The notes under the pieces are model-generated. The model was not told the origin of the DNA, searched no databases, and saw nothing but the letters and a program-made list of their open reading frames with translations. A DNA stretch of 64,000 bases from Tamlana crocina (GTDB lineage: Bacteria > Bacteroidota > Bacteroidia > Flavobacteriales > Flavobacteriaceae). Both the position numbers and the translations under genes were made by a program. Positions 34,685 through 55,448 of this stretch are shown one piece after another. The stretch is from the NCBI GenBank assembly GCA_040429635.1, contig CP158972.1, positions 3,603,501 through 3,667,500 of the forward strand, in the 5' to 3' direction. Numbering within the stretch: the first letter of the stretch is position 1; the number at the start of each line of letters is the position of its first letter.

Positions 34685-35737
34685 ATGATCAAATCCCTAC
34701 ACAAGCGCAACAGCGATTTAGCAAAAAGCAACAAACAGTTGGAAATCTTATCGAACGGTATATTTCAAAATGGCGATTTGCCAACTTTTAAAGATAAAAT
34801 TTCCGAGACGAACCAATTTCCGTTAAAAGCAAAAAAACTGGAAATCCTTCAAATAAATGTAGGTTATATGTGCAACCAAGTTTGTACGCATTGCCACGTT
34901 GATGCTGGGCCAGACCGCAAAGAAATCATGACGCGCGACACCATGCAGCAATGTTTGGAAGTGATAAAAAACACGAGCGCACATACTTTAGATTTAACCG
35001 GCGGTGCTCCAGAAATGAATCCCAATTTTAGGTGGTTTGTTGAAGAAGCTTCAAAAGCGGGCATCAAAGATTTTATTGTACGCTCCAACCTCACCATCAT
35101 CCGCGCCAATAAAAAATATTACGATTTACCCGATTTTTTTAAAAAACACAATGTACACGTTGTGAGCTCGATGCCACACTGGACACGCGGAAAAACCGAC
35201 AAACAGCGTGGCGATGGTGTTTTCAACGCCTCTGTCGAAGCTTTAAAAATGCTGAACGATGTTGGCTATGGCATGCCCAATAGCAACTTAAAATTGGATT
35301 TAGTTTACAATCCCTCCGGTGCGTTTTTGCCAGCCAATCAAACTACAATGGAAAAAGATTTTAAAAAGGCTTTAAAGGAAGATTTCAATATTCAATTTCA
35401 TAATTTATTCGCTATCACCAACCTACCCATTTCCAGATTTTTAGATTATTTGATTGCTTCTGAAAACTACGAAGATTATATGTACGCTTTGGTTGAGGCT
35501 TACAATCCGGCTGCGGTAAAAAACGTGATGTGCACAAACACCCTTTCCGTAAGTTGGGACGGCTATTTATACGATTGTGATTTTAACCAAATGCTGGAAT
35601 TACCCGTAAACAGTAAGGTTAAGCACATTTCAGATTTCAATGAAGACCTATTGGAAGGACGCAACATTGTTATTTCACAACACTGCTACGGTTGCACGGC
35701 TGGCGCCGGAAGCAGTTGCCAAGGTTCGGTAGCTTAA
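34685..35737 (+). CDS. arsS: Arsenosugar biosynthesis radical SAM protein ArsS
   Basis: A 350-residue radical SAM enzyme. The [4Fe-4S] motif is CNQVCTHC (C63, C67, C70); LDLTGGAPEMNP is the usual GGE-like SAM-binding strand. C-terminal cysteines (CTNTLSVSWDGYLYDCDF, HCYGCTAGAGSSC) form the DUF3641 region typical of ArsS. Known work shows ArsS joins a 5'-deoxyadenosyl group to a methylated arsenical, giving the nucleoside core of arsenosugars. It lies in order with glycosyltransferase, PNP and ArsM genes, which makes the assignment strong. Confidence 0.95.
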   Translation: MIKSLHKRNSDLAKSNKQLEILSNGIFQNGDLPTFKDKISETNQFPLKAKKLEILQINVGYMCNQVCTHCHVDAGPDRKEIMTRDTMQQCLEVIKNTSAHTLDLTGGAPEMNPNFRWFVEEASKAGIKDFIVRSNLTIIRANKKYYDLPDFFKKHNVHVVSSMPHWTRGKTDKQRGDGVFNASVEALKMLNDVGYGMPNSNLKLDLVYNPSGAFLPANQTTMEKDFKKALKEDFNIQFHNLFAITNLPISRFLDYLIASENYEDYMYALVEAYNPAAVKNVMCTNTLSVSWDGYLYDCDFNQMLELPVNSKVKHISDFNEDLLEGRNIVISQHCYGCTAGAGSSCQGSVA

Positions 35738-35750
35738 TTTCAGAAGAAGT

Positions 35751-36380
35751 ATGAAAAAAGAACTGGTTATTGTTTTTGTAAAAAACACCCAACTTGGCAA
35801 AGTAAAGACCCGATTAGCCAAAACCATTGGCGATGAAGCCGCTCTAACCGTCTATTCTGAATTAGTTAAAGTGACTGAAAACGCCGTAAAACATTTGGAT
35901 GCCGACGTTCAAATTCATTTTTCAAAACACATTGAAAAACTCGGTTGGAATGGATTTTTAAAAACTATTCAACAAGGTGAAGATTTGGGCGAACGCATGT
36001 ACAATGCTTTTCAAAATGGTTTTTCAGAAGGTTATGAGCGTATTGTACTCATTGGTTCCGATTTACCCGATATTTCAGAAAAACACATCTGCCAAGCTTT
36101 TGAAAGATTAAAAGAAAACAATGCTGTTTTTGGCCCTGCCGAAGATGGCGGCTATTACCTTGTAGGACTCAACCAAATGCGCCGTTCCATTTTTGAAAAC
36201 AAACCATGGAGCCAGCCTCAACTCTTAGCAGAAACCACCACAGAACTAAAGCAAAACAACATAAGTTTTACTACTTTAGAAACCTTAAACGATATTGATA
36301 CTTTTGAAGATTTAGTGACTTCAAAATTTTATCAAAACAACAACGCATTACAAGAAAAAATCAAGCAAATCCATGATTAA
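35751..36380 (+). CDS. Arsenosugar biosynthesis glycosyltransferase (TIGR04282 family, GT-A fold)
   Basis: A 209-residue nucleotide-sugar-transferase-like protein: VFVKNTQLGKVKTRLAKTIG is the nucleotide-binding start, LIGSDLPDI the metal-binding Asp region, and FGPAEDGGYYLVGL the characteristic family motif. It is thought to act in arsenosugar assembly; acceptor and donor are not established. It overlaps the purine nucleoside phosphorylase gene by eight bases. Confidence 0.9.
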   Translation: MKKELVIVFVKNTQLGKVKTRLAKTIGDEAALTVYSELVKVTENAVKHLDADVQIHFSKHIEKLGWNGFLKTIQQGEDLGERMYNAFQNGFSEGYERIVLIGSDLPDISEKHICQAFERLKENNAVFGPAEDGGYYLVGLNQMRRSIFENKPWSQPQLLAETTTELKQNNISFTTLETLNDIDTFEDLVTSKFYQNNNALQEKIKQIHD

Positions 36381-37185
36381 GTTTATAGAAGAAACAGTTG
36401 ATTACTTGCAAAATAGAGGTTTTGAAAACCCAGAAATCGGAATCATTCTCGGTACCGGTTTGGGGCAACTCATCAACGAGATAGAAATTATTAAAGAGGC
36501 AAGCTACAACCACATTCCCAATTTCCCAACAGCCACTGTCGAATTTCATAAAGGCAAACTCATTTACGGTGTTTTAGCCGGAAAAAAAGTAGTGGTGATG
36601 CAAGGTCGTTTTCATCTTTACGAAGGCTACACCTTGCAGGATGTAACCTTTCCTGTTCGCATCATGGAAAAGCTGGGCATAAAAACACTTTTGGTATCTA
36701 ACGCTGCTGGCGCAATCAACCTCAACTTTAAAAAAGGAGAACTTATGCTTATTGAAGACCATATTAACCTTCAGGGCAGTTCGCCATTGGCCTTTAAAGG
36801 TGTGAGTCTTTTAGGCGAACGCTTTACCGATATGAGTGCACCGTACGATGCCAAAATCAATGCCACTTTTAAAGACATCGCAAAAAGCAACGACATTACT
36901 CTACACGAAGGCGTGTACGCCAGTGTTGTAGGGCCTCAACTGGAAACCCGTGCCGAATACCGCATGCTAAAAATCATTGGCGCCGATGCCGTAGGTATGA
37001 GTACCGTTCCGGAAATTATTGTGGCCAACCATTTAAACTTAAGGGTAGCAGCCGTATCGGTTTTAACCGATGAATGCGACCCAGACAACCTGGAACCCGT
37101 TGACATAAAAGACATTATTTCCAGTGCAGAAAAAGCTGAGCCGCAAATGGTAACATTATTTAAAGCATTAATAGAAACACTTTGA
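36373..37185 (+). CDS. Purine-nucleoside phosphorylase
   Basis: A 270-residue trimeric-type PNP. GIILGTGLGQL is the phosphate loop, NAAGAINLNFKKGELMLIED the hallmark, and GVYASVVGPQLETRAEYRML the purine/substrate region. It cleaves purine nucleosides with phosphate. Its place inside the arsenosugar operon suggests that it removes adenine from the dimethylarsinoyl-adenosine made by ArsS/ArsM (inference). It overlaps the preceding glycosyltransferase gene by 8 bases. Ordinary purine salvage remains the alternative. Confidence 0.92.
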   Translation: MIKFIEETVDYLQNRGFENPEIGIILGTGLGQLINEIEIIKEASYNHIPNFPTATVEFHKGKLIYGVLAGKKVVVMQGRFHLYEGYTLQDVTFPVRIMEKLGIKTLLVSNAAGAINLNFKKGELMLIEDHINLQGSSPLAFKGVSLLGERFTDMSAPYDAKINATFKDIAKSNDITLHEGVYASVVGPQLETRAEYRMLKIIGADAVGMSTVPEIIVANHLNLRVAAVSVLTDECDPDNLEPVDIKDIISSAEKAEPQMVTLFKALIETL

Positions 37186-37269
37186 TAACAGGCATTCGAC
37201 GGTATGCAGTAGGCGTCAAAAAAAGCGCTGGATACTGTGACTGGATACTGCCACTGAAGACTGAAAAAC
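37186..37269. repeat. ACTG-rich irregular repeat between PNP and arsM
   Basis: The gap contains ATACTGTGACTGGATACTGC and CACTGAAGACTGA, about five ACTG units, plus the inverse CAGTAGGC upstream. It has no ORF. Confidence 0.4.
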
Positions 37270-38238
37270 ATGAGCTACCTAGAAACCACCCACAACGTTT
37301 ACAAAGAAGCCGCACTAACCCCAGACGTTGGGCTGTGCTGTACCACCAACCCTATTTGGGAATTGCCCGGATTAAAAATTCCGAAAATCATGCAAGAAAT
37401 GAACTATGGCTGCGGCTCAACGGTTCATGCCAGAGATTTATCGAACAATCCCAAAATGCTTTATGTGGGCGTGGGCGGCGGCATGGAATTGCTTCAGTTC
37501 GCTTATTTCAACCGAACAAAAAACGGTGTTGTTGGCATTGATGTGGTTGATGAAATGCTGGAAGCTTCCCGTAAGAATTTTGCTGAGGCCGAAGAACTTA
37601 ATCCGTGGTTTAAAAGCGAGTTTGTCGATTTAAAAAAAGGCGATGCACTCAACCTTCCCGTTGAAGACAACAGCATCGACGTGGGTGCTCAAAACTGCCT
37701 ATTCAATATTTTTAAAACCGATGACTTAAAAAAAGCTATTGCCGAAATGTACCGCGTTTTAAAACCACATGGCAAATTGGTAATGAGCGACCCCACTTGC
37801 GAACAGCCCATGAACGACACCCTTCGCAACGACGAAAGGCTACGTGCCCTGTGTTTAAGTGGCAGTTTACCCATTGCCGATTATGTAAAAATGCTCACCG
37901 ATGCAGGTTTTGGCACTATTGAAATCCGTGCCCGTAAGCCCTATCGTATTCTCGACCCAAAACACTACCCAACAGACGAGTTGATTTATATCGAATCCAT
38001 TGAAGTGGCCGCCATAAAAGACCCTATGCCTGAAGATGGACCTTGTGTTTTCACGGGAAAAGCGGCGATTTACTTTGGCACCGAAGATTATTTTGATGAC
38101 AAAAAAGGACACGTTTTACTGAAAAACCAACCCTTAGCGGTGTGCGACAAAACCGCCGGGGCTTTAGCGGCGTTAAACAGAGACGATATTTTTATTAGTG
38201 AATCTACCTTCCATTATGATGGTGGTGGGTGTTGCTAA
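37270..38238 (+). CDS. arsM: Arsenosugar biosynthesis arsenite methyltransferase ArsM
   Basis: A 322-residue SAM-dependent methyltransferase that methylates trivalent arsenic. The SAM loop is LYVGVGGGMELLQF (about 65-78). Thiol ligands for As(III) are suggested by C23/C24 and C48, and the protein ends in GGGCC, as do other arsenosugar-cluster ArsM proteins. It would supply the methylated arsenical to ArsS. The start is supported by similarity of the first residues (MSYLETTHNVYKEAA). It is followed 10 bases later by an MFS transporter. Confidence 0.93.
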   Translation: MSYLETTHNVYKEAALTPDVGLCCTTNPIWELPGLKIPKIMQEMNYGCGSTVHARDLSNNPKMLYVGVGGGMELLQFAYFNRTKNGVVGIDVVDEMLEASRKNFAEAEELNPWFKSEFVDLKKGDALNLPVEDNSIDVGAQNCLFNIFKTDDLKKAIAEMYRVLKPHGKLVMSDPTCEQPMNDTLRNDERLRALCLSGSLPIADYVKMLTDAGFGTIEIRARKPYRILDPKHYPTDELIYIESIEVAAIKDPMPEDGPCVFTGKAAIYFGTEDYFDDKKGHVLLKNQPLAVCDKTAGALAALNRDDIFISESTFHYDGGGCC

Positions 38239-38248
38239 ACTTTAAACC

Positions 38249-39424
38249 ATGCCTAGCTCCAAAAAAACATTAGCTTTAATTGTTTTAGCTCAGTTTTGCT
38301 GCACTTCGCTTTGGTTTGCTAGCAATGGTGTGATAAAAAATGTGATTTCAGAATTTAACCTGAACGAAAACGCCTTAGGTCATTTAACCTCGGCCATACA
38401 GTTTGGGTTTATTGTGGGCACATTAATATTTGCCGTATTTACTATTTCCGATAGGTTTTCGCCCTCAAAAGTATTTTTTGGTTCGGCCATTCTTGGCGCC
38501 CTATTCAACTTAGGCATATGTTGGCCAGAAAACAGCTTGATAAGCCTAATAATATTTCGTTTTTTAACGGGCTTTTTCTTGGCAGGAATTTACCCTGTAG
38601 GAATGAAAATTGCAGCCGATTATTTTGAAAAAGGCCTCGGAAAATCGCTCAGTTTTTTAGTCGGCGCCCTCGTTTTAGGCACTGCATTTCCGCATCTATT
38701 AAGTCAGTTTACAAATCCTAATATCTGGTACGCCGTTATTTTAGGTACTTCTGTACTATCAATTGTTGGAGGCACTTTAATCTTCACTTTGGTCCCCGAT
38801 GGCCCAAATAGATTACCTAGCAAAACCCTTGATTTGACTTCCTTTGTTTCCATTTTTAGAAACAAACCATTCCGTTCAGCGGCCTTTGGTTACTTTGGGC
38901 ACATGTGGGAACTTTATACCTTTTGGGCTTTTGTTCCGTTGGTTTTAAAATTTTACAACTCTCAATTCAAAAATGACTTAGACGTTTCGTTTTGGGCGTT
39001 TTTTATAATAGGCATTGGCAGTTTAGGCTGTGTTTTGGGCGGATTTCTGTCTGAAAAATTCAACGCTAAAATCATCAGCATTACGGCACTTTCACTTTCG
39101 GGGTTCTGTTGTTTGGTTTCGCCTTTTATATTTTCAGCGGCATCAAACACTTTACTTATTGCTGTCTTATTATTTTGGGGTGTCGCTGTTATTATAGATT
39201 CACCGCTGCTTTCCACATTAATTGCGCAAAACGCATCTCCAGACAAAAAAGGCACCGCGCTTACCATCGTAAACTGCATGGGCTATTGCATTACCATAGT
39301 AAGCATTCAACTAACCACTGTTTTTCTTGAATCCTATACCTTCATTTATATATTCAGCATTTTGGCCATTGGCCCCGTTTTTGGAGTAGTTTCATTGGTA
39401 AAAAACAAAGCCTTAAAAGGCTAA
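38249..39424 (+). CDS. MFS transporter in the arsenosugar operon
   Basis: A 391-residue inner-membrane protein with about 12 hydrophobic helices. The N-terminal half has the MFS-like segments GFIVGTLIFAVFTISDRFSP and FLTGFFLAGIYPVGMKIAAD. Substrate cannot be read from the sequence; by position it probably moves an arsenical or an arsenosugar product. Its stop overlaps the next start as TAATG, showing tight translational coupling. Confidence 0.88.
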   Translation: MPSSKKTLALIVLAQFCCTSLWFASNGVIKNVISEFNLNENALGHLTSAIQFGFIVGTLIFAVFTISDRFSPSKVFFGSAILGALFNLGICWPENSLISLIIFRFLTGFFLAGIYPVGMKIAADYFEKGLGKSLSFLVGALVLGTAFPHLLSQFTNPNIWYAVILGTSVLSIVGGTLIFTLVPDGPNRLPSKTLDLTSFVSIFRNKPFRSAAFGYFGHMWELYTFWAFVPLVLKFYNSQFKNDLDVSFWAFFIIGIGSLGCVLGGFLSEKFNAKIISITALSLSGFCCLVSPFIFSAASNTLLIAVLLFWGVAVIIDSPLLSTLIAQNASPDKKGTALTIVNCMGYCITIVSIQLTTVFLESYTFIYIFSILAIGPVFGVVSLVKNKALKG

Positions 39425-40320
39425 TGAGCACTATGGAAAGGTATATTGAAATTATTTTGAACGCTTACAAAGGATACTGGAATTATCTAAAAAACGAGAT
39501 ATTCTTCCCAAACCATTGGGACAATTATTTTTATGGGTTAATTATCATTTCATTAGCCGTTTGGCTCTTGGAAATCATCTTTCCGTGGCGGAAGAAACAA
39601 GCCATCTTCAGAAAGGATTTTTGGCTCGATACCTTTTACATGTTTTTCAATTTCTTTTTACTGAACCTTATTGTCCTCATAGCCTTATCGAACACGGCCG
39701 AACATATGTTTAATGATATTTTAGGTGTTTTTGGATTGAGCATTTCCAACGTTCAACTTTTTGATGTGGATACACTACCCAAATGGCTGGGGTTGCTCAT
39801 TTTCTTTTTAGTTTCCGATTTTGTTCAATGGAATACCCACCGCCTTTTACACCGCGTGCCTTTCTTATGGGAATTTCATAAAGTGCATCATTCGGTGAAA
39901 CAAATGGGCTTTGCAGCACATTTACGCTACCATTGGATGGAACCCGTGGTTTACAAATCGGCACTTTATATTCCCATTGCCCTCATCGGCGGTTTTGATG
40001 CGCAAGATGTCGCAATAGTCCACTTTTTTGCCATTACCATTGGCCATCTAAACCACGCTAATTTAGGTTGGGATTACGGCATTTTTAAATACATTTTCAA
40101 CAACCCGAAAATGCACATTTGGCACCACGCTAAAGCTTTGCCCGAACATGTTAGGTATGGTGTAAATTACGGACTAACCTTGAGTATTTGGGATTACCTC
40201 TTTAAAACCGACTATTTGCCGTATAGCGGAAAAGACATTGAATTGGGCTTTGAAGGCGACCATAATTTCCCAAAAAAATTTATGGAACAAGAGTTGTTTC
40301 CATTCACAAAAAAACAATGA
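39424..40320 (+). CDS. Fatty acid hydroxylase/sterol desaturase-family membrane enzyme
   Basis: A 298-residue integral-membrane di-iron oxygenase. The His boxes are HRLLHR (139-144), HKVHH (152-156), HLNH (208-211) and HIWHH (231-235). Three or four transmembrane segments lie before and between them. The family hydroxylates or desaturates lipids. In an arsenosugar operon a lipid-modifying enzyme suggests an arsenolipid or arsenosugar-phospholipid step, which is inference. Start overlaps the MFS stop; its end overlaps the DUF547 start (ATGA). Confidence 0.88.
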   Translation: MSTMERYIEIILNAYKGYWNYLKNEIFFPNHWDNYFYGLIIISLAVWLLEIIFPWRKKQAIFRKDFWLDTFYMFFNFFLLNLIVLIALSNTAEHMFNDILGVFGLSISNVQLFDVDTLPKWLGLLIFFLVSDFVQWNTHRLLHRVPFLWEFHKVHHSVKQMGFAAHLRYHWMEPVVYKSALYIPIALIGGFDAQDVAIVHFFAITIGHLNHANLGWDYGIFKYIFNNPKMHIWHHAKALPEHVRYGVNYGLTLSIWDYLFKTDYLPYSGKDIELGFEGDHNFPKKFMEQELFPFTKKQ

Positions 40321-41018
40321 TTAAAAGATTACTGATTGGCTTTGCAATTTCTTTTGGGTTATTTGCCCAAGCACAACATTTTGACCACAGTAAATTTTCA
40401 GAACTCTTACAAGCCCATGTTTCGGAAGGTGGAAACGTAAACTACAGTACCATAAAAGCTAACCCCAATGTTTTAAACCAATATTTAGCTGAATTTTCAA
40501 AAGCGCATCCTACGGAATCGTGGCCTAAAAACGAAACCTTAGCCTATTGGATTAACGCTTACAATGCCTTTACCATCAAATTGATTATTGACAATTACCC
40601 CATAAAAAGCATTAAAGACCTTAAACATCCGTGGGACCAAAAATTTATTCCCATTAACGGAAAGTTACTTTCGCTCAACCATATTGAACATGACATTTTA
40701 CGTAAAATGGGCGAACCTCGCATCCATTTTGCTATTGTTTGCGCCTCGCACTCTTGTCCGAAACTACAAAATGAAGCTTTTGTTCCTTCCCGCTTAGATA
40801 ATCAGCTCACCCATGCGACTAAAACATTTTTAAACGACCCTGAAAAGAATGTCATCTCTAAAAATCTCATAGAACTTTCAAAAATCTTTAAATGGTTTAA
40901 AAAGGATTTTGAAGAAAACGGCTCTTTAATTGAATTTATAAGCCCATACACTGAAACTACTATTTCAAAAGCTGCAAAAATTAAATACAAAGACTACAAT
41001 TGGACTTTAAATGAGTAA
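40317..41018 (+). CDS. DUF547 domain secreted protein (copy 1)
   Basis: A 233-residue exported protein with signal peptide MIKRLLIGFAISFGLFAQAQ. The DUF547 core has AYWINAYNAFTIKLIIDNYP, HFAIVCASHSCPKL and a terminal YDYNW-like KYKDYNWTLNE. DUF547 has no established reaction; Cys, His and Ser in the CASHSCP motif resemble an active site. It is coupled to the hydroxylase and followed by a glycosyltransferase. A paralogue lies at 51162-51875. Confidence 0.88.
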   Translation: MIKRLLIGFAISFGLFAQAQHFDHSKFSELLQAHVSEGGNVNYSTIKANPNVLNQYLAEFSKAHPTESWPKNETLAYWINAYNAFTIKLIIDNYPIKSIKDLKHPWDQKFIPINGKLLSLNHIEHDILRKMGEPRIHFAIVCASHSCPKLQNEAFVPSRLDNQLTHATKTFLNDPEKNVISKNLIELSKIFKWFKKDFEENGSLIEFISPYTETTISKAAKIKYKDYNWTLNE

Positions 41019-41027
41019 ATTTACAAT

Positions 41028-41750
41028 ATGCACCTCATTTCAACCATTATTCCTGTTTTAAACGAAGCAGCCCATATTGGCCAATTATTAGATTATTTGG
41101 CTAAAAACGTAAAAAACAAAACCCATTTCGAAATTATAATTGTAGATGGCGGCAGTACCGACGGCACAGAAAAAGTTGTCCGTTCATTCATTGAAAATAA
41201 CGGCACTAAAATTAGATTAACGCTTTTACATTCAGAAAAAGGTCGTGCCAAACAAATGAATTACGGCACACAGCACGCCCAAGGCAACATCCTTTATTTT
41301 TTGCATGCCGACTCGTTTCCGCCCAAACATTTCGACCAATTTATAGTCAATGAAATAAAAAGAGGCAATCCAGCAGGATGTTTTAGAATGCAATTCGACA
41401 GCAACCATTGGTGGCTACAATTGGCGAGTTGGCTCACGCAATTCAATTGGCGGGCTTGCCGCGGAGGCGACCAAAGTCAGTTTATCACTAAATCTCTGTT
41501 TAATGACATAGGCGGTTTTGATGAGCGCTACGTGATTTACGAAGACAATATTTTAATCAACGCCCTTTACGAGAGACAGCAATTTGTAGTGATTAATAAA
41601 AAACTGAAAACTTCAGCCAGAATGTACCGCAAGCACAGCATTTGGAAAGTACAATACCTCTATTGGTCTATTCACATCAAAAAATGGCTTGGTGCTGATG
41701 CTAATCAGCTTTACCAACATTATAAACGTCACCTTTCAACAAACAACTAG
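41028..41750 (+). CDS. Arsenosugar biosynthesis glycosyltransferase (TIGR04283 family, GT2)
   Basis: A 240-residue family-2 glycosyltransferase. STIIPVLNEAAHIGQLLDYL begins the GT-A fold, IIIVDGGSTDGTEKVV gives nucleotide binding, FLHADSFPP is the DxD-like motif, and GGDQSQFITKSLFNDIGGFD is the family-specific part. The C-terminal segment (SARMYRKHSIWKVQYLYWS) is amphipathic. Found with ArsS in many genomes; the sugar acceptor is unknown. It ends the operon and overlaps the convergent phosphatase gene by 4 bases. Confidence 0.9.
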   Translation: MHLISTIIPVLNEAAHIGQLLDYLAKNVKNKTHFEIIIVDGGSTDGTEKVVRSFIENNGTKIRLTLLHSEKGRAKQMNYGTQHAQGNILYFLHADSFPPKHFDQFIVNEIKRGNPAGCFRMQFDSNHWWLQLASWLTQFNWRACRGGDQSQFITKSLFNDIGGFDERYVIYEDNILINALYERQQFVVINKKLKTSARMYRKHSIWKVQYLYWSIHIKKWLGADANQLYQHYKRHLSTNN

Positions 41751-46088: not shown

Positions 46089-47186
46089 TCACAAAACTTC
46101 AAATATTTTGTTTATAAGCTTGTCGTACATTTTTTGGGAATTGGGATTTGAGCAATTTGCCAGAATTGAGATAACCACATTAGTTTCTGGATATACATAA
46201 AAAACACCATAACCCCCTAATGCATTTCCTATATGCCCAAAATAAGGACGGCCAGAAGAATCATTGCTCACTTGAAAACCAACACCATAATAGGTAGAAG
46301 TTAATGCATTGTTGATTTTTATTTTTTGTGCAGTTGTAAATTCTTTTAGGCGGTTGGGACTAACCGACAACATTTTTAACAAGGCATTTCCAAAAGCATT
46401 AATATCTTGACTTGTTGACAAAAACCCTCCAGAGGCCAACTTAAAATAGTTGTTCACCTTTTCAACTGGCTTAAATCTTCTTCTGCCTTTCTTTTGGTAA
46501 AAAACAGCTTTTCCTCTTAAATTTTGGTTCTTATCAGCAAAGGTTTGTTCCATCCTAAAAGGCAATAACACCTCTGTCTTTACAAAATCTTCAAAAGCAA
46601 CATTAGCTTGCTCAATTATGGCCAGTGAAATTAAATTCCAGTTATAGCTGGAGTAAGTGAAATTTGTACCTGGTTTAAATCCAAGCGAACTATTTTGAAA
46701 AAAGGATATCCCTTCCTTTATGCCAAGAGGTTTATTGCTTTTAAATTCATTTCCCTTATAGCTTCTAATTCCAGACGTGTGCGCACCCAATTGTTTAACG
46801 GTGATATCATATTCTTTTTTGGGAAAATAGGGCACATACTTATATATTGAACTATCTAGGGCTATTAAGCCTTTTTCTACTCCCCGCAGTAAAGCAATTG
46901 CTGCTATAGGCTTTGAAATACTGCCAATTCTAAAAACAGTATGTTCTGAACTAATGGGTATTTTTTTTTTAATGTCTGCAAAACCAACACCTTTAGACCA
47001 TACCACTTGTTGATTTTTAGAAACCGTTATTGCCATTCCAGGTACTTTTCGTTTGCGCACCATGCTTTCTAAAACACGTTCTGCTTTTTTAAACCTATTT
47101 AATGATTGACTTTGCGCAATAGATTTACCCGGAAACAAGCAAATGGCACAAAATGTAGTTATAACCCAAAAAACCGCTTTTATCAT
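46089..47186 (-). CDS. Serine hydrolase of the beta-lactamase/D-Ala-D-Ala peptidase (class C-like) family
   Basis: A 365-residue exported protein with an N-terminal signal (MIKAVFWVITTFCAICLFPG). Active-site SISK (S89, K92) and a YSS-type second motif in FTYSSYNWN, with YFGHIGNALGGYG near the C-terminus in place of a KTG-like box. Family members are esterases, D-amino acid peptidases or beta-lactamase-like enzymes; the specificity cannot be told. It is the last gene of a leftward group with a POTRA barrel, a lipoprotein and a GH113-like protein. Confidence 0.85.
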   Translation of the reverse strand: MIKAVFWVITTFCAICLFPGKSIAQSQSLNRFKKAERVLESMVRKRKVPGMAITVSKNQQVVWSKGVGFADIKKKIPISSEHTVFRIGSISKPIAAIALLRGVEKGLIALDSSIYKYVPYFPKKEYDITVKQLGAHTSGIRSYKGNEFKSNKPLGIKEGISFFQNSSLGFKPGTNFTYSSYNWNLISLAIIEQANVAFEDFVKTEVLLPFRMEQTFADKNQNLRGKAVFYQKKGRRRFKPVEKVNNYFKLASGGFLSTSQDINAFGNALLKMLSVSPNRLKEFTTAQKIKINNALTSTYYGVGFQVSNDSSGRPYFGHIGNALGGYGVFYVYPETNVVISILANCSNPNSQKMYDKLINKIFEVL

Positions 47187-47188
47187 AT

Positions 47189-48436
47189 CTAAAAATACTG
47201 GCCAATACCAAAAACAAAACCTCTACTGGCATTTTTACTTATACCATAGCCATAATCTATTCTAAAAATAGCATTATAAATTTTCTTGTGCATAAATCTG
47301 ACCCCAAGGCCGGGGTAAAACTTTACGTTATCTGAGTTTGCAAAATCATCAAAATCACCGCCGGGATTCCTCCAAGATCCAGCATCGATAAAAACGTTAC
47401 TCTGCAATACAAACCAGTTTTTTTCAATAATTGTATGCCTTAGCTCGGTATTTAATACAACGGCTCCCGTTCCTCTATCAATGGTATTGCCAACACCCCT
47501 AATATTCAAATTATTGTCGACAGAAAAAGGAGCAAAAGGGGTTTCGTCGTTTGAAGAAAGCCCTATACGAACCCTTGTTGCCCAATTTCCTTTTTCTCCC
47601 AGTCTCTTAAAATAGAAAAAATCGTTCCAGCCAATAAAAAAATCAGGCAGCATATCGTTGGTAGAGGTCACGTATTGCACATTTAACTGGTTTCTTATTC
47701 CAGAAACGTATTGATAGAAATAATCTAATTTATTGTAATCAAAAATACCTTTAGCCAACCATTTGTGCACATTTAACTCTGGCCTATTATTGATATTTTC
47801 ACCTTTAAACCTGTAATCTTCCACAAAATAGTTCAGCCCAAGTTCTAACTTGTTTTCTACATTTATTTGATACAACCCCATGATTTCCATGGACTTATTT
47901 CGGTATTTATAATTAACGCCTTTATCATCAAAAAAAACGGGTTCTTGTGTTGTTAAATCCTGAAAATTTAGAGCCATTCCTAACTGGTTTGAAAACAAAT
48001 AAGGCGCCCTAAAGTTGATAGCATAAGAGCTATAGATATCCTTTTGATAGAATCCTCCTACCATGATGTTCCGGCCAAACATGTTAAATTCATACAACCC
48101 TAAACGATAGGCAAACTCATCATTATTTGTAGTATAAACATTTACCGAAGGAATAAGGGTAATATTCTCAACAATATCATAAATTACTGTATACATATTG
48201 TCTTTGGTAGCTAAAACTTGGTAAGACGCGTTAGATATTGAAGGCAAACGCTTTAACAGAAGCATATCTTGGTTTAACTGTAAAGTATCTAATTTATCGC
48301 CAACTTTTAGAATGCTTATTTTTTTTATAAATGATGTTTTTAATCTTTTATTGCCCTGTATTTTAACATCATGTATATTCTGTGCCTGAAAAGTGACACA
48401 CAAAAGTAAAAATATAAAAGCTAAATATTTTTTCAT
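47189..48436 (-). CDS. BamA/TamA-type outer-membrane protein with one POTRA domain
   Basis: A 415-residue outer-membrane protein. Signal peptide (MKKYLAFIFLLLCVTFQAQ) is followed by a single POTRA-like domain (about 20-95, IHDVKIQGNKRLKTSFIKKI), then a C-terminal beta barrel (surface-antigen D15 type) ending in ...GFVFGIGQYF with a C-terminal aromatic residue. BamA has five POTRAs, so this is a dedicated or minimal homologue, perhaps exporting or inserting a partner. Starts in a TAATG overlap with the lipoprotein gene upstream. Confidence 0.82.
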   Translation of the reverse strand: MKKYLAFIFLLLCVTFQAQNIHDVKIQGNKRLKTSFIKKISILKVGDKLDTLQLNQDMLLLKRLPSISNASYQVLATKDNMYTVIYDIVENITLIPSVNVYTTNNDEFAYRLGLYEFNMFGRNIMVGGFYQKDIYSSYAINFRAPYLFSNQLGMALNFQDLTTQEPVFFDDKGVNYKYRNKSMEIMGLYQINVENKLELGLNYFVEDYRFKGENINNRPELNVHKWLAKGIFDYNKLDYFYQYVSGIRNQLNVQYVTSTNDMLPDFFIGWNDFFYFKRLGEKGNWATRVRIGLSSNDETPFAPFSVDNNLNIRGVGNTIDRGTGAVVLNTELRHTIIEKNWFVLQSNVFIDAGSWRNPGGDFDDFANSDNVKFYPGLGVRFMHKKIYNAIFRIDYGYGISKNASRGFVFGIGQYF

Positions 48437-49170
48437 TATTTCGCTTCAAATGTTTTTTCAACCACCCAATTTACCCAATTATCTTTACTTACATCCATTA
48501 AAGTAAAATTATATGTATTGCCGATTATTAAGTTGGGCGGTGTATTACGGGTGACATTGAGAATTACATTACTTGTGTTATAATACTGAAATGTGTTTTC
48601 ATGAGTATAAGTGCCAGACAGCAAATTATTTTCATCATCTGTTACCACTTGGAAATAAATAGCGTTATCGCCAACAGGGTTATCAACCCAGTAAAAAAAT
48701 GGCATGGTTGATTGCGATTGTTCTATTGTAACAGCACCATTCCAAAGTGTAGGTTTTGATAATTGTTTTGAACGAATAGGGTTTGAAATTTTTATGTCCC
48801 CATCAAGCTCAAAAGTTACAATTATCCATTTTTCATGTTGCGCATTATGTGTAAACCTACCTAAATAACCATTAAACACAGGAACAATAGAATGTTTTAC
48901 TTCAAAGTAACTCCCATAATCATTTTTATCAAAATTAGAATTTTCAGTTTCATAATATTTAATGTTTGTTGCTCCTGGTTCAGGATAAAAAAAGGCAAAT
49001 ATGTCTCCCGTTGTTTTATCACTGGCAGCACATGCTATAACGCCTCCTACTTCAATGTTTTTGTCTTTAACGTACTGGGCCAAAGTGTTTTCAGTATTTA
49101 CACCATCACTTGAACAAGCACTAAACACAATCAATATAATGCAAAACCATAAACTATTTAAACGCTTCAT
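48436..49170 (-). CDS. Hypothetical lipoprotein
   Basis: A 244-residue lipoprotein (FSAC lipobox, C19, followed by SSDG). The mature part alternates beta-strand-like segments (HEKWIIVTFELDGDIKIS) and resembles no family I know. The start overlaps the end of the GH113-like gene by 17 bases, and its stop overlaps the next gene as TAATG, so it is certainly part of that four-gene unit. A role as a surface or periplasmic partner of the barrel is inference. Confidence 0.75.
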   Translation of the reverse strand: MKRLNSLWFCIILIVFSACSSDGVNTENTLAQYVKDKNIEVGGVIACAASDKTTGDIFAFFYPEPGATNIKYYETENSNFDKNDYGSYFEVKHSIVPVFNGYLGRFTHNAQHEKWIIVTFELDGDIKISNPIRSKQLSKPTLWNGAVTIEQSQSTMPFFYWVDNPVGDNAIYFQVVTDDENNLLSGTYTHENTFQYYNTSNVILNVTRNTPPNLIIGNTYNFTLMDVSKDNWVNWVVEKTFEAK

Positions 49171-50155
49171 AGTAGCTTTTTATAATCTTTTCAACAGGTT
49201 TGTTTTGTGGTGTAAACATATGGTTTTGTTCACCTCCAACCTGTTCATGATTTACAAACCATTTCCAAACAAAACCTCCAGCAAACCAATCTTGATGCCA
49301 AAAGGTTTCAAAAAGTGCTTTTGTGGTATTTACTTGTGCCTCCAAATTAACTCCCTGCATACTTCGTTCACTTTTCCAAGGTTCTTTCCCTGAGAAATCT
49401 ACACTTCGGTAACCAAACTCGGTAAACAACACTGGTTTATTAAATGCCTTTTGCTTTGCTTTAATTTCTGACAAATGATTTTTCCAACCTTCCATAGCAT
49501 CTTCAAAAGTTGGTGTTTTAACATCGCTTACAGGAAAATAAGCATCAATACCTATAAAATCTAATTCGCTCCAAAAGGGTGTGCGTTTAAACTCATCCCA
49601 ATTTGCGGCATAGGTTAATTTACCTTTATAGACCGCCTTAATTTTTTTTATGATTTGAAACCAGTATTTGGGCCTGCTTTTTATAAATGTTTCCAATTCT
49701 GTTCCAATACAAAAAATATCGGCGTTTACCTCTTGTGCTATAGCTGCATACTCTAAAATAAATTTTGAATATGATGTTTCAAAAGCCTTCCAGTCTGCTT
49801 CCGAAGTCATTTTAATAAACCCCGTAAACTCACCATGCCAAACCCAAATTTGGGGTTTAAGCATTATTTTTATGTGGTGTTTTTGTAGTGTTTCAACATA
49901 TTGCCTTACACCTTTTGCGGTTTCACCAAACCACTGCCTATTGGTGTTATAAGTTAACGTTGTACTGTTTAAGCTTTTCGCAAAGCCAAAAGGCATTACA
50001 GCCGCATAGTTAGCATTTAGTTTTACAACCGGATTTATGTGCACATCATTCACTGCATCTCTAGACGCTACAAAACTAACTCCGTTTATTTTTTCAACTT
50101 GCGCTGCACATGATTGTAATAACAGTAATAAAATTAGGAGCTTATAGGTTTTCAT
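49154..50155 (-). CDS. Glycoside hydrolase, GH113-like, lipoprotein
   Basis: A 333-residue lipoprotein (LLLLQSC, C16) with a TIM-barrel glycosidase domain. IFCIGTELETF holds the probable acid/base Glu and LFTEFGYRS the nucleophile Glu, matching the GH113 (beta-mannanase) layout as I recall it; AFVWKW-like WFAGGFVWKWFVNH ends the barrel. Likely cuts a mannan or related glycan at the cell surface, which fits polysaccharide-degrading marine Flavobacteriia. It heads the four-gene operon with no SusC/SusD neighbours in view. Confidence 0.78.
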   Translation of the reverse strand: MKTYKLLILLLLLQSCAAQVEKINGVSFVASRDAVNDVHINPVVKLNANYAAVMPFGFAKSLNSTTLTYNTNRQWFGETAKGVRQYVETLQKHHIKIMLKPQIWVWHGEFTGFIKMTSEADWKAFETSYSKFILEYAAIAQEVNADIFCIGTELETFIKSRPKYWFQIIKKIKAVYKGKLTYAANWDEFKRTPFWSELDFIGIDAYFPVSDVKTPTFEDAMEGWKNHLSEIKAKQKAFNKPVLFTEFGYRSVDFSGKEPWKSERSMQGVNLEAQVNTTKALFETFWHQDWFAGGFVWKWFVNHEQVGGEQNHMFTPQNKPVEKIIKSYYEAFK

Positions 50156-50225: not shown

Positions 50226-51140
50226 TTAAAACAAGGCTCTTAAGCCTATATTAAATGTTTGCCCCAACCCAGAGCTTTTACCTCTTACAAAATTGGTGTA
50301 AAGTGCTTCAATATTTAAAACCTTGGTTAATTGGTATTTTGCACCACCACCAACGGCTGTAAAATCTTGAGAGAAATCATTACCTAAATCTAGCAACTGC
50401 GAGTGTTGTGCTAATGCTAAAACTGTAAATTTATTACTAGGGAAATAGCTTAAAAACACACCCGGTGTTAAACGCAGACTGTTATTTGCAAAACTCCCCT
50501 CAAGTGAGGTTGAAAAATCTGGAGTGTACACATCTTCTTTTCCAAAGTTAAACTCTGTATTTAGCTCTGAAAAAATTTGCCAATCGCCACTTCCAAAGGT
50601 GTAATCATAAAAGAATCTATTTTGAAAGATGAACCCTTTTTGGTCAAAAAACACCCCGTCTTCAGTTTCATTACCTACTAAAGGAATGTGTAACGCTGTT
50701 TGAATAGTGAAGTTTGAAACATTTTTTAACGGATTAAATTTTATAGCCGGCGCAATAGATGTTAAACCAGAACGTGCAGTTCCGCGCTCACCATCAAACT
50801 TAAAAACATCAAGCGCATTTCTATTGCCCACTACATTTGAACGAAACTCTAAAATAACACCTACATTAAGTTTACTGTTTTCTGAAACACCTGTAAATAC
50901 ATCTAAAGTTGATGTAAAATAAGTTTCTCTACTTAGGTTTTTGGTAACGTCACCACTTTCATCGGCTGTTTTGGTTTGTGTGTATAAATTATTAAACCAC
51001 TTAATATCCCACTGTCCTTTTTTTAAAAGTTTTGATGGTGTGTAGGTTTGTATAACACTGCCTTGGTTTTCTTGGTTTTCTTCTTGCGAAAAAGCTGTAA
51101 ATGCTAACGCTACAAATACTACGGTCATTAGTTTTTTCAT
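50226..51140 (-). CDS. Outer-membrane beta-barrel protein, function unknown
   Basis: A 304-residue protein with signal peptide MKKLMTVVFVALAFTAFSQ. Successive amphipathic strands (YFTSTLDVFTGVSENSKLNVG, VILEFRSN) and a C-terminal aromatic strand (GQTFNIGLRALF) suggest a barrel; the length is like small transporter or porin-like barrels of Bacteroidota. No family can be named with confidence. It directly follows the DUF547 gene (21 bases) and is probably co-transcribed with it. Confidence 0.7.
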   Translation of the reverse strand: MKKLMTVVFVALAFTAFSQEENQENQGSVIQTYTPSKLLKKGQWDIKWFNNLYTQTKTADESGDVTKNLSRETYFTSTLDVFTGVSENSKLNVGVILEFRSNVVGNRNALDVFKFDGERGTARSGLTSIAPAIKFNPLKNVSNFTIQTALHIPLVGNETEDGVFFDQKGFIFQNRFFYDYTFGSGDWQIFSELNTEFNFGKEDVYTPDFSTSLEGSFANNSLRLTPGVFLSYFPSNKFTVLALAQHSQLLDLGNDFSQDFTAVGGGAKYQLTKVLNIEALYTNFVRGKSSGLGQTFNIGLRALF

Positions 51141-51161
51141 GTGTATGTATATTTTTTTTGA

Positions 51162-51875
51162 TTATTGTTTATTAAGTTGCCAGTTATACTCAAAGTATTT
51201 TATTTTGAAACCACCTGGTATTTTTTCTGTTCTGTATCTATTTATAAAATCTATTTCAGTAGTACCGTTCATGGTAAAATCTTCTTTGTACCATTCCATT
51301 ATTTGTGATGCTTCTACACGTTTCTTTTTAATATTCACCATTAAAAAATCGCCATTTAAAGCTTTCTTTGTTTGCGCATCCATTTGTGTATTTAATGTAG
51401 AAGGCAAATACGCTTCACTGATTAAAGGCGGGCAGCCAATGGCTCCGCAAACTAACACAAAATGAAAACGGGCATCATTAAACTGAGCACGTAATAGCTT
51501 GTGTTCAATATCATTTAGTGTTATGCTTTTTCCTCCAATATTATGTTTCACTTTATCAAAAAAACCAGCATTTGCTAATGGCGAATTGGTTGGATAATTA
51601 TCAATTATACCTTTTATTACTGAAAGATTATAAGCGTTAATCCAAAATGCTTGATAGTTTTTTGCGTCGGTTTTATCTACGGCTATACCCTCTGCTAAAT
51701 TCAACAAGCTGTAAAGGGCTTCGGGGTTATCATGTATTTTCTTGTAAGCAACCAAACCATTAGACACGTTAGCTTTCAAAAAAGCATCGGCCTTGTTAAA
51801 AAAAGCATCTAAGTCTTGACCGTTTACCGAAAAGGCCATAAAGAAAACAGCCAATATTAAAGTATAATTTTTCAT
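51162..51875 (-). CDS. DUF547 domain secreted protein (copy 2)
   Basis: A 237-residue exported protein with signal peptide MKNYTLILAVFFMAFSVNGQ. Core motifs AFWINAYNLSVIKGIIDNYP, HFVLVCGAIGCPPL and a terminal KYFEYNWQLNK parallel copy 1 (40317-41018); the copy 1 motif VCASHSCP is VCGAIGCP here, so the Ser and His are lost but both Cys remain. Function unknown. It is divergent from the FAD oxidoreductase gene 190 bases away. Confidence 0.88.
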   Translation of the reverse strand: MKNYTLILAVFFMAFSVNGQDLDAFFNKADAFLKANVSNGLVAYKKIHDNPEALYSLLNLAEGIAVDKTDAKNYQAFWINAYNLSVIKGIIDNYPTNSPLANAGFFDKVKHNIGGKSITLNDIEHKLLRAQFNDARFHFVLVCGAIGCPPLISEAYLPSTLNTQMDAQTKKALNGDFLMVNIKKKRVEASQIMEWYKEDFTMNGTTEIDFINRYRTEKIPGGFKIKYFEYNWQLNKQ

Positions 51876-52065
51876 AATAAATTATTTTTTTTACTTGAAC
51901 TAAGTCTGCATCTTGCTGATAAACTTTCAAAAAAAATTATTTTTTCAACATCCCGTTATTTGGTAATCCTTACAGAAAAGCATCAATTTATATCTATTCT
52001 AAATTAAACCCTCAACAATTAAGTTATTATCTTTAGTTTCGACTCAACTCTCATAATTAAAAAAA

Positions 52066-53379
52066 ATGGAACACATTGTTATCATAGGAAATGGTATTTC
52101 GGGCGTTACGGCTGCACGGCATATTAGAAAACTTTCTGATACTGAAATAACCATTATCTCTGCCGAAACAGATTATTTTTTCTCTCGTACAGCACTCATG
52201 TACGTTTATATGGGGCACATGAAATTTGAGCACACGCAACCCTATGAAAATTGGTTTTGGAAAAAAAACAACATCGAACTGAAGAAAGCCTATGTTGAAA
52301 CGGTTGAAACCTCAACTAAAACCTTGCATTTTTCTGAAGGTGACACTTTAAAATACGATAAACTGATTATAGCCACAGGCAGTAAGCCCAACAAATTTGG
52401 TTGGCCGGGGCAAGACTTAAAAGGTGTTATGGGGCTCTACCATAAACAGGATTTGGAAAATTTAGAACACTACGCCCCTAATAACAAAGTGTGCAAACGT
52501 GCCGTTATTGTTGGCGGCGGATTAATTGGCATCGAACTTGCAGAAATGTTGAGTTCCCGCAATATACCCGTTACTTTTTTGGTGCGTGAGTCTAGTTTTT
52601 GGAATGGCGTGCTGCCCGACGGAGAAAGCCAAATGATTAACCGGCATATAATAAATCACCATATCGATTTACGATTAAGCACCAATTTAAAGGAAATTAA
52701 AGCAGACGAAAACGGAAAGGTGAAATCGGTTATCATCGAAGAAACCGGTGAAGAGATAGCTTGCGATGTGGTAGGTTTAACGGCAGGTGTATCACCACAT
52801 ATCGACTTTTTAAAATCAACTGAAATAGAAACAGGCAAGGGTGTAAAAGTGAACCGCTACCTGGAAACCAATATTGAAGATGTTTATGCCATTGGCGATT
52901 GTGCCGAACAGCATGAAGCCATAGGTAACCGCCGCCCTATTGAAGCGGTATGGTACACCGGCCGCATGATGGGCGAAACCGTAGCACAAACCATTTGCGG
53001 TAATCGCTTGCCTTACAACCCTGGGCATTGGTTCAACTCGGCCAAGTTTTTTGATATTGAATACCAAACTTACGGCTGGGTGAACGGCAGTAAAGGCAGG
53101 CCAGATTACGAAGCCCATTTCCATTGGAAACATGAAGACAACACCAAATGCATCACCATTGCCTACAACAAAAAAACCTATGCCTTTTTAGGAATAAATA
53201 CTTTCGGTATCCGAATGCGACACGAAACATTCAACAAATGGCTCAACGAAAAGCGCGATGTTGATTTTGTTATTAAACATTTAGCGGAAGCTAATTTTGA
53301 CCCCGAGTTTTACAAACGATACGAAAAAGCCATTTTATTGGCTTACAATAACAGCTCCCAAACAGCAACCACTTTTTAA
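52066..53379 (+). CDS. NAD(P)/FAD-dependent oxidoreductase
   Basis: A 437-residue two-dinucleotide-fold flavoprotein related to ferredoxin, nitrite or rubredoxin reductases. FAD binding by IGNGISGVTAARHIR at the N-terminus, NAD(P) binding by VGGGLIGIELAEML (about 150), and the FAD end motif VYAIGDCAEQHEA. Extra C-terminal residues (about 330-437) contain the WFNSAKFFDIEYQTYGWVNG region. The next gene, 12 bases downstream, is a membrane iron-sulfur protein, so it probably passes electrons to or from it. Confidence 0.88.
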   Translation: MEHIVIIGNGISGVTAARHIRKLSDTEITIISAETDYFFSRTALMYVYMGHMKFEHTQPYENWFWKKNNIELKKAYVETVETSTKTLHFSEGDTLKYDKLIIATGSKPNKFGWPGQDLKGVMGLYHKQDLENLEHYAPNNKVCKRAVIVGGGLIGIELAEMLSSRNIPVTFLVRESSFWNGVLPDGESQMINRHIINHHIDLRLSTNLKEIKADENGKVKSVIIEETGEEIACDVVGLTAGVSPHIDFLKSTEIETGKGVKVNRYLETNIEDVYAIGDCAEQHEAIGNRRPIEAVWYTGRMMGETVAQTICGNRLPYNPGHWFNSAKFFDIEYQTYGWVNGSKGRPDYEAHFHWKHEDNTKCITIAYNKKTYAFLGINTFGIRMRHETFNKWLNEKRDVDFVIKHLAEANFDPEFYKRYEKAILLAYNNSSQTATTF

Positions 53380-53391
53380 AACAGAACTGCA

Positions 53392-54966
53392 ATGGCTTTA
53401 ACCAAACCCGAAATAAATCATCTATCAACAAAACAAAAGCTTGCCGTTTTTACTGGCTCCATTGGGCTGTTTATTTTAGCATTGACTCTGTTTGGCATTG
53501 ATATCCCCTATAAAAGTTTACTTTTAGCGCTATCGCTAGGGCTTATTTCAATTGGCACTATTATTTTTTCAAACAACCTGTATTTATCAAAATCGAAAGG
53601 CATAAAAAATGATGCCGTCTGGTTTAAGTCCATCTCTTCGCGTGGTGTATTGGCTTGGGTTTTAGGCATTTTGCTTACCGGGTTTTACATTGTGCTATAT
53701 TTTTACCCAGAGTATTTGGGCCAAACCTCTTCAGGCGAACCCAACAAAGGGCTCATTGCCCTATTCGACCCCTTGAGCGAATTACTTAGTGGCCGTCCGG
53801 CGAGCCAGTGGTTCGTTTATGGTACGCTTTACACCTTAGCCATCTTAATTTTTGGATATAAATTTCTTTTGAAATACCGCCATAACCGTTACGAACAACT
53901 CCGAACCGTTTCGGTGATGTTCTTCCAACTGGCCTTTGCCTTTTTAATACCAGAATTTATGTACGTGATGAATTCTGATTTACCGTACTACGACCTTAAA
54001 AATATTTGGCCACTCAACTATTATAATTTTGAACAGTACCGCGTCAACGCGTTTATAAATTCAGGAACTATTGGTTTGACTATGCTTATTTTTGGAGTGG
54101 TTTCCATTTTCGTCATTACCCCTATTCTCACTTATAAATATGGCAAACGCTGGTATTGCTCTTGGGTTTGTGGTTGTGGCGGACTAGCCGAAACAGCAGG
54201 CGACTCCTTTAGGCAATTAAGCGACAAAAGCCTTTTTGCTTGGAACATTGAACGATGGGTAATACACAGCGTTTTGGTTTTTGTGGTGGTGATGACAACT
54301 GCTGTGATTTATACCTATTTGGGCTACGACCCTAAAAAATACTGGCTTACCCGCGATGTTTTTTTGTATTTAGTCGCTGGATTTTTAACCCTAATTTTTG
54401 TATTAACCATGATATTTAAACGTCATGAATTAGGTAAAGATGCCAAATACGGCGCCATTGGCTATTTTATAATTATTATCGCTTTAATTGTCATTCACCT
54501 ATTCAGTTCGCAAACCAAACTGTTTTTATTTAAAGCTGAAACACTGCGCTCTACCTATTCGTTTTTTATCGGAGCTATTTTTTCGGGAGTAATCGGCACG
54601 GGATTTTACCCTATTTTTGGCAATCGGGTTTGGTGTCGCTTTGGTTGCCCGATGGCCGCAATTCTCGGTTTTCAGCAACGTATGTTTTCAAAATTCAGGA
54701 TAACCACCAATGGCGGACAGTGCATTTCTTGCGGAAACTGCTCAACATATTGCGAAATGGGTATTGATGTGCGAGCCTACGCCCAAAAAGGCGAAAACAT
54801 TGTACGCTCCAGTTGCGTGGGCTGTGGCATTTGCTCGGCGGTTTGTCCGCGTGGCGTTTTAAAACTGGAAAACGACAGTATGAATGGACGCATCAATTCT
54901 AATGATATTTTATTAGGCAACGATGTCGATTTGATGGATTTAGTAAACCAAAATAAATATTCCTAA
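53392..54966 (+). CDS. Membrane-bound 4Fe-4S electron-transfer protein
   Basis: A 524-residue inner-membrane protein with about eight hydrophobic segments. Cysteine-rich WYCSWVCGCGG (near 255-265) and WCRFGCPMAA resemble the NapH/NosR/CcoG loops; the C-terminal domain has two 4Fe-4S clusters, CISCGNCSTYC (near 443) and CVGCGICSAVCPRG (near 475). It would move electrons between the cytoplasmic flavoprotein upstream and a membrane or periplasmic acceptor. The specific acceptor is not evident. It overlaps the downstream MORN-like gene by one base. Confidence 0.85.
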   Translation: MALTKPEINHLSTKQKLAVFTGSIGLFILALTLFGIDIPYKSLLLALSLGLISIGTIIFSNNLYLSKSKGIKNDAVWFKSISSRGVLAWVLGILLTGFYIVLYFYPEYLGQTSSGEPNKGLIALFDPLSELLSGRPASQWFVYGTLYTLAILIFGYKFLLKYRHNRYEQLRTVSVMFFQLAFAFLIPEFMYVMNSDLPYYDLKNIWPLNYYNFEQYRVNAFINSGTIGLTMLIFGVVSIFVITPILTYKYGKRWYCSWVCGCGGLAETAGDSFRQLSDKSLFAWNIERWVIHSVLVFVVVMTTAVIYTYLGYDPKKYWLTRDVFLYLVAGFLTLIFVLTMIFKRHELGKDAKYGAIGYFIIIIALIVIHLFSSQTKLFLFKAETLRSTYSFFIGAIFSGVIGTGFYPIFGNRVWCRFGCPMAAILGFQQRMFSKFRITTNGGQCISCGNCSTYCEMGIDVRAYAQKGENIVRSSCVGCGICSAVCPRGVLKLENDSMNGRINSNDILLGNDVDLMDLVNQNKYS

Positions 54967-55448
54967 TGAAGCAATCTATGATAGTCATTAGTGCTTTTCT
55001 GCTTTTAGGAGTTTACGGCCATACACAAAAAGCATATCAAAGGAATTATGATGCTAACCATAATTTAACATCTGAAGGATGGGTTGAAAACCACCAAAAA
55101 GTTAATTACTGGAAATTTTACTATCCTAATGGTAACATTAAAAATCAAGGGCACTTTCTAAACGGAAAAAGGCATGAATTTTGGAAATTCTATACAAAAA
55201 AAGGCACTTTGAAAGCAGAAGGGCATTTTTTTAATGGAAAAAAAACTAACTGGTGGTTATTTTACGATGATAAAGGACAAATAAACCACAAATGCCAGTT
55301 ATATAACAACCAAAAAAATGGATATTGTCTAAAGTACAACAACGAAAAACTTGTTTCAGCTTCAAAATACAAAGCGGGTAAAAAACTTAAAGAATGGACA
55401 TCTCTTACATCATTCAAAAAGGAAAACAGCTTAAGTGATTTATTATAG
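54966..55448 (+). CDS. MORN-variant repeat secreted protein
   Basis: A 160-residue exported protein with signal peptide (MKQSMIVISAFLLLGVYGHT). Four or five 20-22-residue MORN-like repeats such as KFYYPNGNIKNQGHFLNGKR, then WKFYTKKGTLKAEGHFFNGK. Such YwqK-type repeats are common in Bacteroidota and have no proven function. Its start overlaps the stop of the Fe-S gene (TAATG), which ties it to that unit. Confidence 0.82.
   Translation: MKQSMIVISAFLLLGVYGHTQKAYQRNYDANHNLTSEGWVENHQKVNYWKFYYPNGNIKNQGHFLNGKRHEFWKFYTKKGTLKAEGHFFNGKKTNWWLFYDDKGQINHKCQLYNNQKNGYCLKYNNEKLVSASKYKAGKKLKEWTSLTSFKKENSLSDLL

Follow-up and report, generated by a model that had tools for sequence, protein, structure and literature searches.

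A flavoprotein/membrane Fe-S protein pair and an optional DUF547 envelope module appear to meet in a conserved arsenosugar/glycoconjugate locus of Bacteroidota

In a 64,000-nucleotide stretch of the Tamlana crocina genome (contig CP158972.1; hereafter the window), five genes at positions 50226-55448 diverge from a single 190-base gap and may mark the junction of two modules of a larger conserved locus. All five open reading frames (ORFs) and the gap lie where a sequence-only reading of this DNA had placed them. Rightwards (+ strand) run a FAD/NAD(P)H oxidoreductase of the ferredoxin-reductase/NirB/AorC type (52066-53379; PF07992, Pyr_redox_2, E 4.9e-51), a membrane Fe-S protein that we call FeS (53392-54966; Fer4 domains plus Fer4_5 in Pfam) and an exported MORN_2-like protein (54966-55448; MORN_2 E 4e-4, under the Pfam cut-off). 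Leftwards (- strand) run DUF547b, an exported DUF547 protein of 237 residues (51162-51875; PF04784, E 5.1e-26), and a 304-residue protein modeled as a barrel with a COG4313-like fold (50226-51140). Spacings inside the two groups are 21, 12 and -1 bases, which suggest two divergent operons. The gap itself (51876-52065) is 24% G+C; a search of it for a Bacteroidetes-type promoter gave weak -7-like matches only and no clear pair. The arrangement is not a chance one, because in our sample of 100 genera of Flavobacteriaceae, the family of the window, DUF547b lies within 500 bases of the FAD gene and divergent from it in 31 of the 32 loci that have DUF547b.

The FAD gene lies immediately 5′ of FeS in 132 of 140 loci, made up of 58 of the 60 family loci and 74 of the 80 GTDB loci. 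Given this near-constant adjacency, and the fusion of a flavodomain to the Fe-S protein in another lineage, reading the two as a single functional unit fits best. The fused forms belong to a set of loci, L107-L114, in which the Fe-S homologues lie within ORFs of 777-889 residues: the N-terminal part of the one in L113 is a YpdA/thioredoxin-reductase-like flavodomain, different from the window's flavoprotein, and the fused genes of L112 and L113 adjoin GT4282, DUF547 and ArsS.

The flavoprotein belongs to the same family as AorC, PadH and the ferredoxin reductases (its relatives in the PDB include 3lxd and AorC, 8c0z_E, with ferredoxin reductases among them), and like them it has no redox-active disulfide and works beside Fe-S proteins. 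It differs from them in that its partner is a membrane protein, in its conserved C-terminal region and in falling under every equivalog cut-off: its best NCBIfam models are CoA-disulfide reductase, NirB, HcaD and PadH, all far below threshold (162.8 against 578.8 bits for CoA-disulfide reductase, TIGR03385). There is no redox-active cysteine pair, C279 being the sole cysteine in the invariant or near-invariant columns. SRTAL stands where CoA-disulfide reductases have their active-site cysteine.

FeS has about nine transmembrane segments predicted from hydropathy, the motifs C256-x3-C260-x-C262 and C415-x3-C419-P, and a C-terminal 2x[4Fe-4S] ferredoxin domain. All 13 of its 13 cysteines, five in the membrane region and eight in the bacterial-type ferredoxin domain, are invariant in a divergent alignment. 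It thus shares membrane cysteine motifs and a C-terminal 2x[4Fe-4S] domain with the NapH/NosR-type membrane ferredoxins, but its partner is an NAD(P)H flavoprotein and not a reductase complex. Whereas NapH and NosR have two CX3CP motifs, FeS has only the second; its first is CX3CXC, followed by an invariant L-A-E-T. Its best NCBIfam subfamily match, NapH/MauN (TIGR02163), scores 43.9 bits, far under the cut-off of 213.

An electron-transfer role for the pair is supported by the flavoprotein's solved relatives, some of which pass electrons to or from Fe-S partners, and by the invariant cluster cysteines. We infer a two-subunit complex in which the cytosolic flavoprotein would exchange hydride with NAD(P)H and electrons would pass to the two [4Fe-4S] clusters of the membrane partner and on to membrane-embedded clusters. 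Quinone would be the likely second redox partner, with flow possible in either direction.

The usual upstream neighbor of the pair is an arsenosugar cluster. The window holds a complete one at 34685-41750 (+ strand), left unnamed by the sequence-only reading, with ArsS, TIGR04282, PNP, AsSugarArsM, MFS, an OlsE-like fatty-acid hydroxylase, a first DUF547 protein (DUF547a, 40317-41018) and TIGR04283. Four arsenosugar models pass their curated cut-offs in the window (TIGR04167, TIGR04282, NF038099 and TIGR04283), the scores being 446 against 300 bits for ArsS, 575 against 400 for AsSugarArsM, 204 against 134 for TIGR04282 and 230 against 182 for TIGR04283. Of the 100 family genera 70 carry FeS and 73 carry ArsS; 67 have both, 3 FeS only, 6 ArsS only and 24 neither (p = 2e-14). 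The distance between them is below 40 kb in 49 of the 67 genomes with both (47 on the same strand). Maps of 60 family loci mostly show the arsenosugar genes, GH113 running leftwards and FAD/FeS rightwards, and in four DUF547-free loci the arsenosugar core still adjoins FAD/FeS. The pair also lies beside ArsS in three other families, and in four loci of another family ArsS and GT4282 stand immediately beside it. A side observation is that an ORF of about 110 residues adjoins ArsS in six loci, L112 and L113 among them; the L113 protein is carboxymuconolactone-decarboxylase/AhpD-like, and it is possibly an extra arsenosugar gene.

Radical-SAM enzymes require a reductant. One explanation of this association is that the pair is dedicated to supplying low-potential electrons to ArsS, described as a radical-SAM enzyme that adenosylates arsenic in work cited in PMC12159101, or that it reduces methylated arsenic in arsenosugar synthesis. 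The strong co-occurrence within the family, the four loci with ArsS and GT4282 immediately beside the pair and the fused form in L112 and L113 would all fit such a role. Among 179 Bacteroidota genomes outside the family, however, 13 of the 32 with FeS lack ArsS, 52 have ArsS without FeS, and the FeS/ArsS link vanishes when conditioned on DUF547 (odds ratio 1.3, p = 0.74). We consider this role unlikely.

On the other side of the gap, the protein that the sequence-only reading had called an outer-membrane barrel is indeed predicted to be one. Its model has 12 strands (predicted local distance difference test, pLDDT, 83.9), as in the COG4313 fold, and its best fold match in the PDB is the COG4313 channel 4rl8 (Z 23.4, root-mean-square deviation 2.9, 250 residues). 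The two share strand number, 250 aligned residues and similar length, the COG4313 family ranging from 270 to 320 residues (PMC4493636), but they are only 11% identical. The barrel has no Pfam or NCBIfam match to E 0.1, and a profile search of the PDB by sequence gave none either. COG4313 channels are thought to import hydrophobic molecules (PMC4493636).

The barrel adjoins DUF547b in 27 of 32 family loci, and these two genes form an optional envelope module with the MORN-like gene, the three being gained or lost together. All three are present in 23 of 70 loci and all absent in 40 (p ≤ 2e-12 for every pair, 3e-14 for DUF547b and barrel). On the tree of the Fe-S protein, barrel and DUF547b change alike in 7.3 of 10 independent pairs and in opposite directions in none (median p 0.016). 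The sequence-only reading had assigned MORN to the redox unit. We place it instead in the envelope module, because it is present or absent with DUF547b and the barrel and changes together with them on the tree, despite the 1-base overlap of its gene with that of FeS. The protein scores 20.7 bits against a MORN_2 gathering score of 29.6, with a weak repeat pattern visible.

The leftward operon, which the sequence-only reading had let end with the barrel, continues to 46089 at a serine hydrolase gene, with gaps of -17 to +70 bases. Next after the barrel is a GH113-family lipoprotein (49154-50155; PF22612, E 1.3e-43; LQSC lipobox by inspection), and beyond it lie an ORF without a named family (48436-49170), a POTRA/Omp85-like protein (47189-48436) and the serine hydrolase (46089-47186), all on the - strand.

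DUF547b passes the Pfam gathering score for PF04784 easily (91.5 against 27 bits), its N-terminus is hydrophobic by inspection, and its AlphaFold2 model has a pLDDT of 92.8. Single-sequence and profile searches of the PDB gave no match, and a fold search of the PDB gave no informative one (best Foldseek E 3.1, best VIA Z 4.3), so that a confident predicted model appears to match no solved fold there. Across divergent DUF547 proteins N80, Y82, N83, E124, H138, C143, C148, P149 and W195 are invariant; among these, the Asn, Glu, His and two Cys residues are compatible with an enzyme.

The window does contain DUF547 twice, as the sequence-only reading had said, and these are the only two copies in the genome. 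That reading had gone further and proposed that DUF547 proteins are themselves partners or accessories of electron-transfer or oxidation chemistry in the envelope, each copy standing beside a membrane redox or oxygenase enzyme. The absence of any statistical link with membrane redox genes, which that reading had named as its own refutation, is not what we find, for a link with FeS does exist: outside the family 27 genomes have both, 5 FeS only, 47 DUF547 only and 100 neither (Fisher p = 5e-8). These counts assume an independence that genomes do not have, and the number of families is the safer measure. The two lie less than 15 kb apart in 9 genomes from 6 other families; in three of these families DUF547 is directly upstream of FAD/FeS. 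In the outside-family genomes the association is independent of ArsS (Mantel-Haenszel odds ratio 8.0, p = 5e-6), and the two invariant cysteines of an exported protein would also suit a redox role. The link is nevertheless tied to one FAD/FeS pair and is narrower than claimed; 47 of the 74 outside-family genomes with DUF547 lack FeS. In 40 DUF547 loci chosen for lying away from FeS, the commonest neighbor is the TIGR04283 glycosyltransferase (10), followed by ArsS (4); the other recurrent neighbors that we scanned are for the most part regulators and enzymes of housekeeping or metabolism, plus one AhpC-type peroxiredoxin. In one Bacteroidota family a GH15/trehalase-like protein carries DUF547 at its C-terminus (L203:6612-9371); DUF547-bearing ORFs of about 900 residues occur in three loci of that family, of which L203 was scanned. 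Nor is an oxygenase a regular partner: DUF547a directly follows the fatty-acid-hydroxylase-family gene in the window, but among 50 family loci such a gene comes before DUF547a in just 26, while TIGR04283 comes after it in 46. A redox role for DUF547 itself is, in our judgment, improbable. From the genomes without FeS, the TIGR04283 neighbors, the GH15 fusion, the inconsistent hydroxylase and the turnover of MORN, we conclude that DUF547 is more aptly seen as one component of a glycoconjugate/arsenosugar locus to which the redox pair also belongs; it looks tied to such metabolism at large and to the pair in particular settings.

The glycan side of this locus extends beyond FeS. Downstream in most family members is an AglJ-like GT2 glycosyltransferase (GT2p) resembling polyprenyl-phosphate-sugar synthases, and further downstream are a 496-residue GT2 protein (GT2big) resembling CelA/PgaC/MftF and an MptB-like GT-C protein. 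Among 66 full-length GTDB loci, from Flavobacteriaceae such as Psychroserpens, Winogradskyella and Aquimarina, GT2big is found in 61, GT2p in 60, GH113 in 56 and the MptB-like protein in 52. Two loci carry a DUF547-FAD-FeS-GT-GT-MptB-GH113 cluster with no ArsS nearby. We rejected the fatty-acid hydroxylase as a general user of FAD/FeS electrons, because only 22 of the 66 loci with the pair have it. In the window's own genome the two GT2 genes lie far from FeS at contig positions 692905-695075, with the MptB-like gene beside them (within 685001-705000).

This split, and the presence of unrelated genes (dnaE, pyruvate carboxylase) near the five in the window, would be expected if independent operons had merely stayed neighbors within one family without a joint function. 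Such an account does not readily explain why distant families of Bacteroidota have the same partners next to FAD/FeS, arranged in different orders, or why DUF547b, barrel and MORN come and go as one package, and we think there is little chance that it is correct.

The explanation that we favor, although it could as easily prove wrong as right, is that two modules of a conserved glycoconjugate/arsenosugar locus of Bacteroidota meet at the five genes, with the FAD/FeS pair acting as an NAD(P)H-linked membrane electron-transfer unit that serves the pathway. Gene order and co-occurrence support the description of the locus and its modules well; the pathway role of the pair we infer with moderate confidence. 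The pair would serve a redox step of the surrounding pathway, that is, of arsenosugar making and of sugar addition via polyprenyl-phosphate donors. At the outer membrane, the second module (DUF547b, the 12-stranded COG4313-like channel and MORN) would handle or move the lipid- or sugar-linked product. DUF547 probably functions as an enzyme that works on the glycoconjugate with its invariant Cys, His, Glu and Asn residues. Several points weigh against this explanation. The outside-family genomes with FeS and no ArsS imply that arsenosugar cannot be its sole use, and several loci have no such partners nearby at all. In the window's genome the distance of GT2p, GT2big and MptB from FeS is almost 800 kb if the 3.75-Mb contig is circular, and about 3 Mb otherwise. 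Lasting gene order among related genomes can outlive function, and the role given to DUF547, from conserved residues and neighbors, is a guess. A stronger version, in which a NirB/AorC-type flavoprotein and a CX3CXC-variant polyferredoxin form an undescribed membrane NAD(P)H/quinone-linked complex dedicated to an arsenosugar/arsenolipid and glycoconjugate pathway, with DUF547 as a partner enzyme whose fold is not yet in the PDB, is possible and we offer it tentatively.

Each protein is a member or remote relative of known kinds, and it is their combination that appears undescribed. Our literature search, incomplete in coverage, found no paper tying DUF547 or the FAD/FeS pair to arsenosugar clusters, and none on the function of bacterial DUF547 proteins or on TIGR04282/TIGR04283 clusters with redox partners. 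The curated arsenosugar models that the window passes do not cover DUF547, the FAD/FeS pair, the polyprenyl-type glycosyltransferases or GH113. These genes are a candidate set for the conversion of bacterial arsenosugars into larger lipids or glycans, steps that mostly lack assigned genes, and they occur in marine flavobacteria, many of them cultured. DUF547 gains from the analysis a genomic setting and a set of invariant residues, and the locus hints at the place of action of the redox pair and of the DUF547 proteins.

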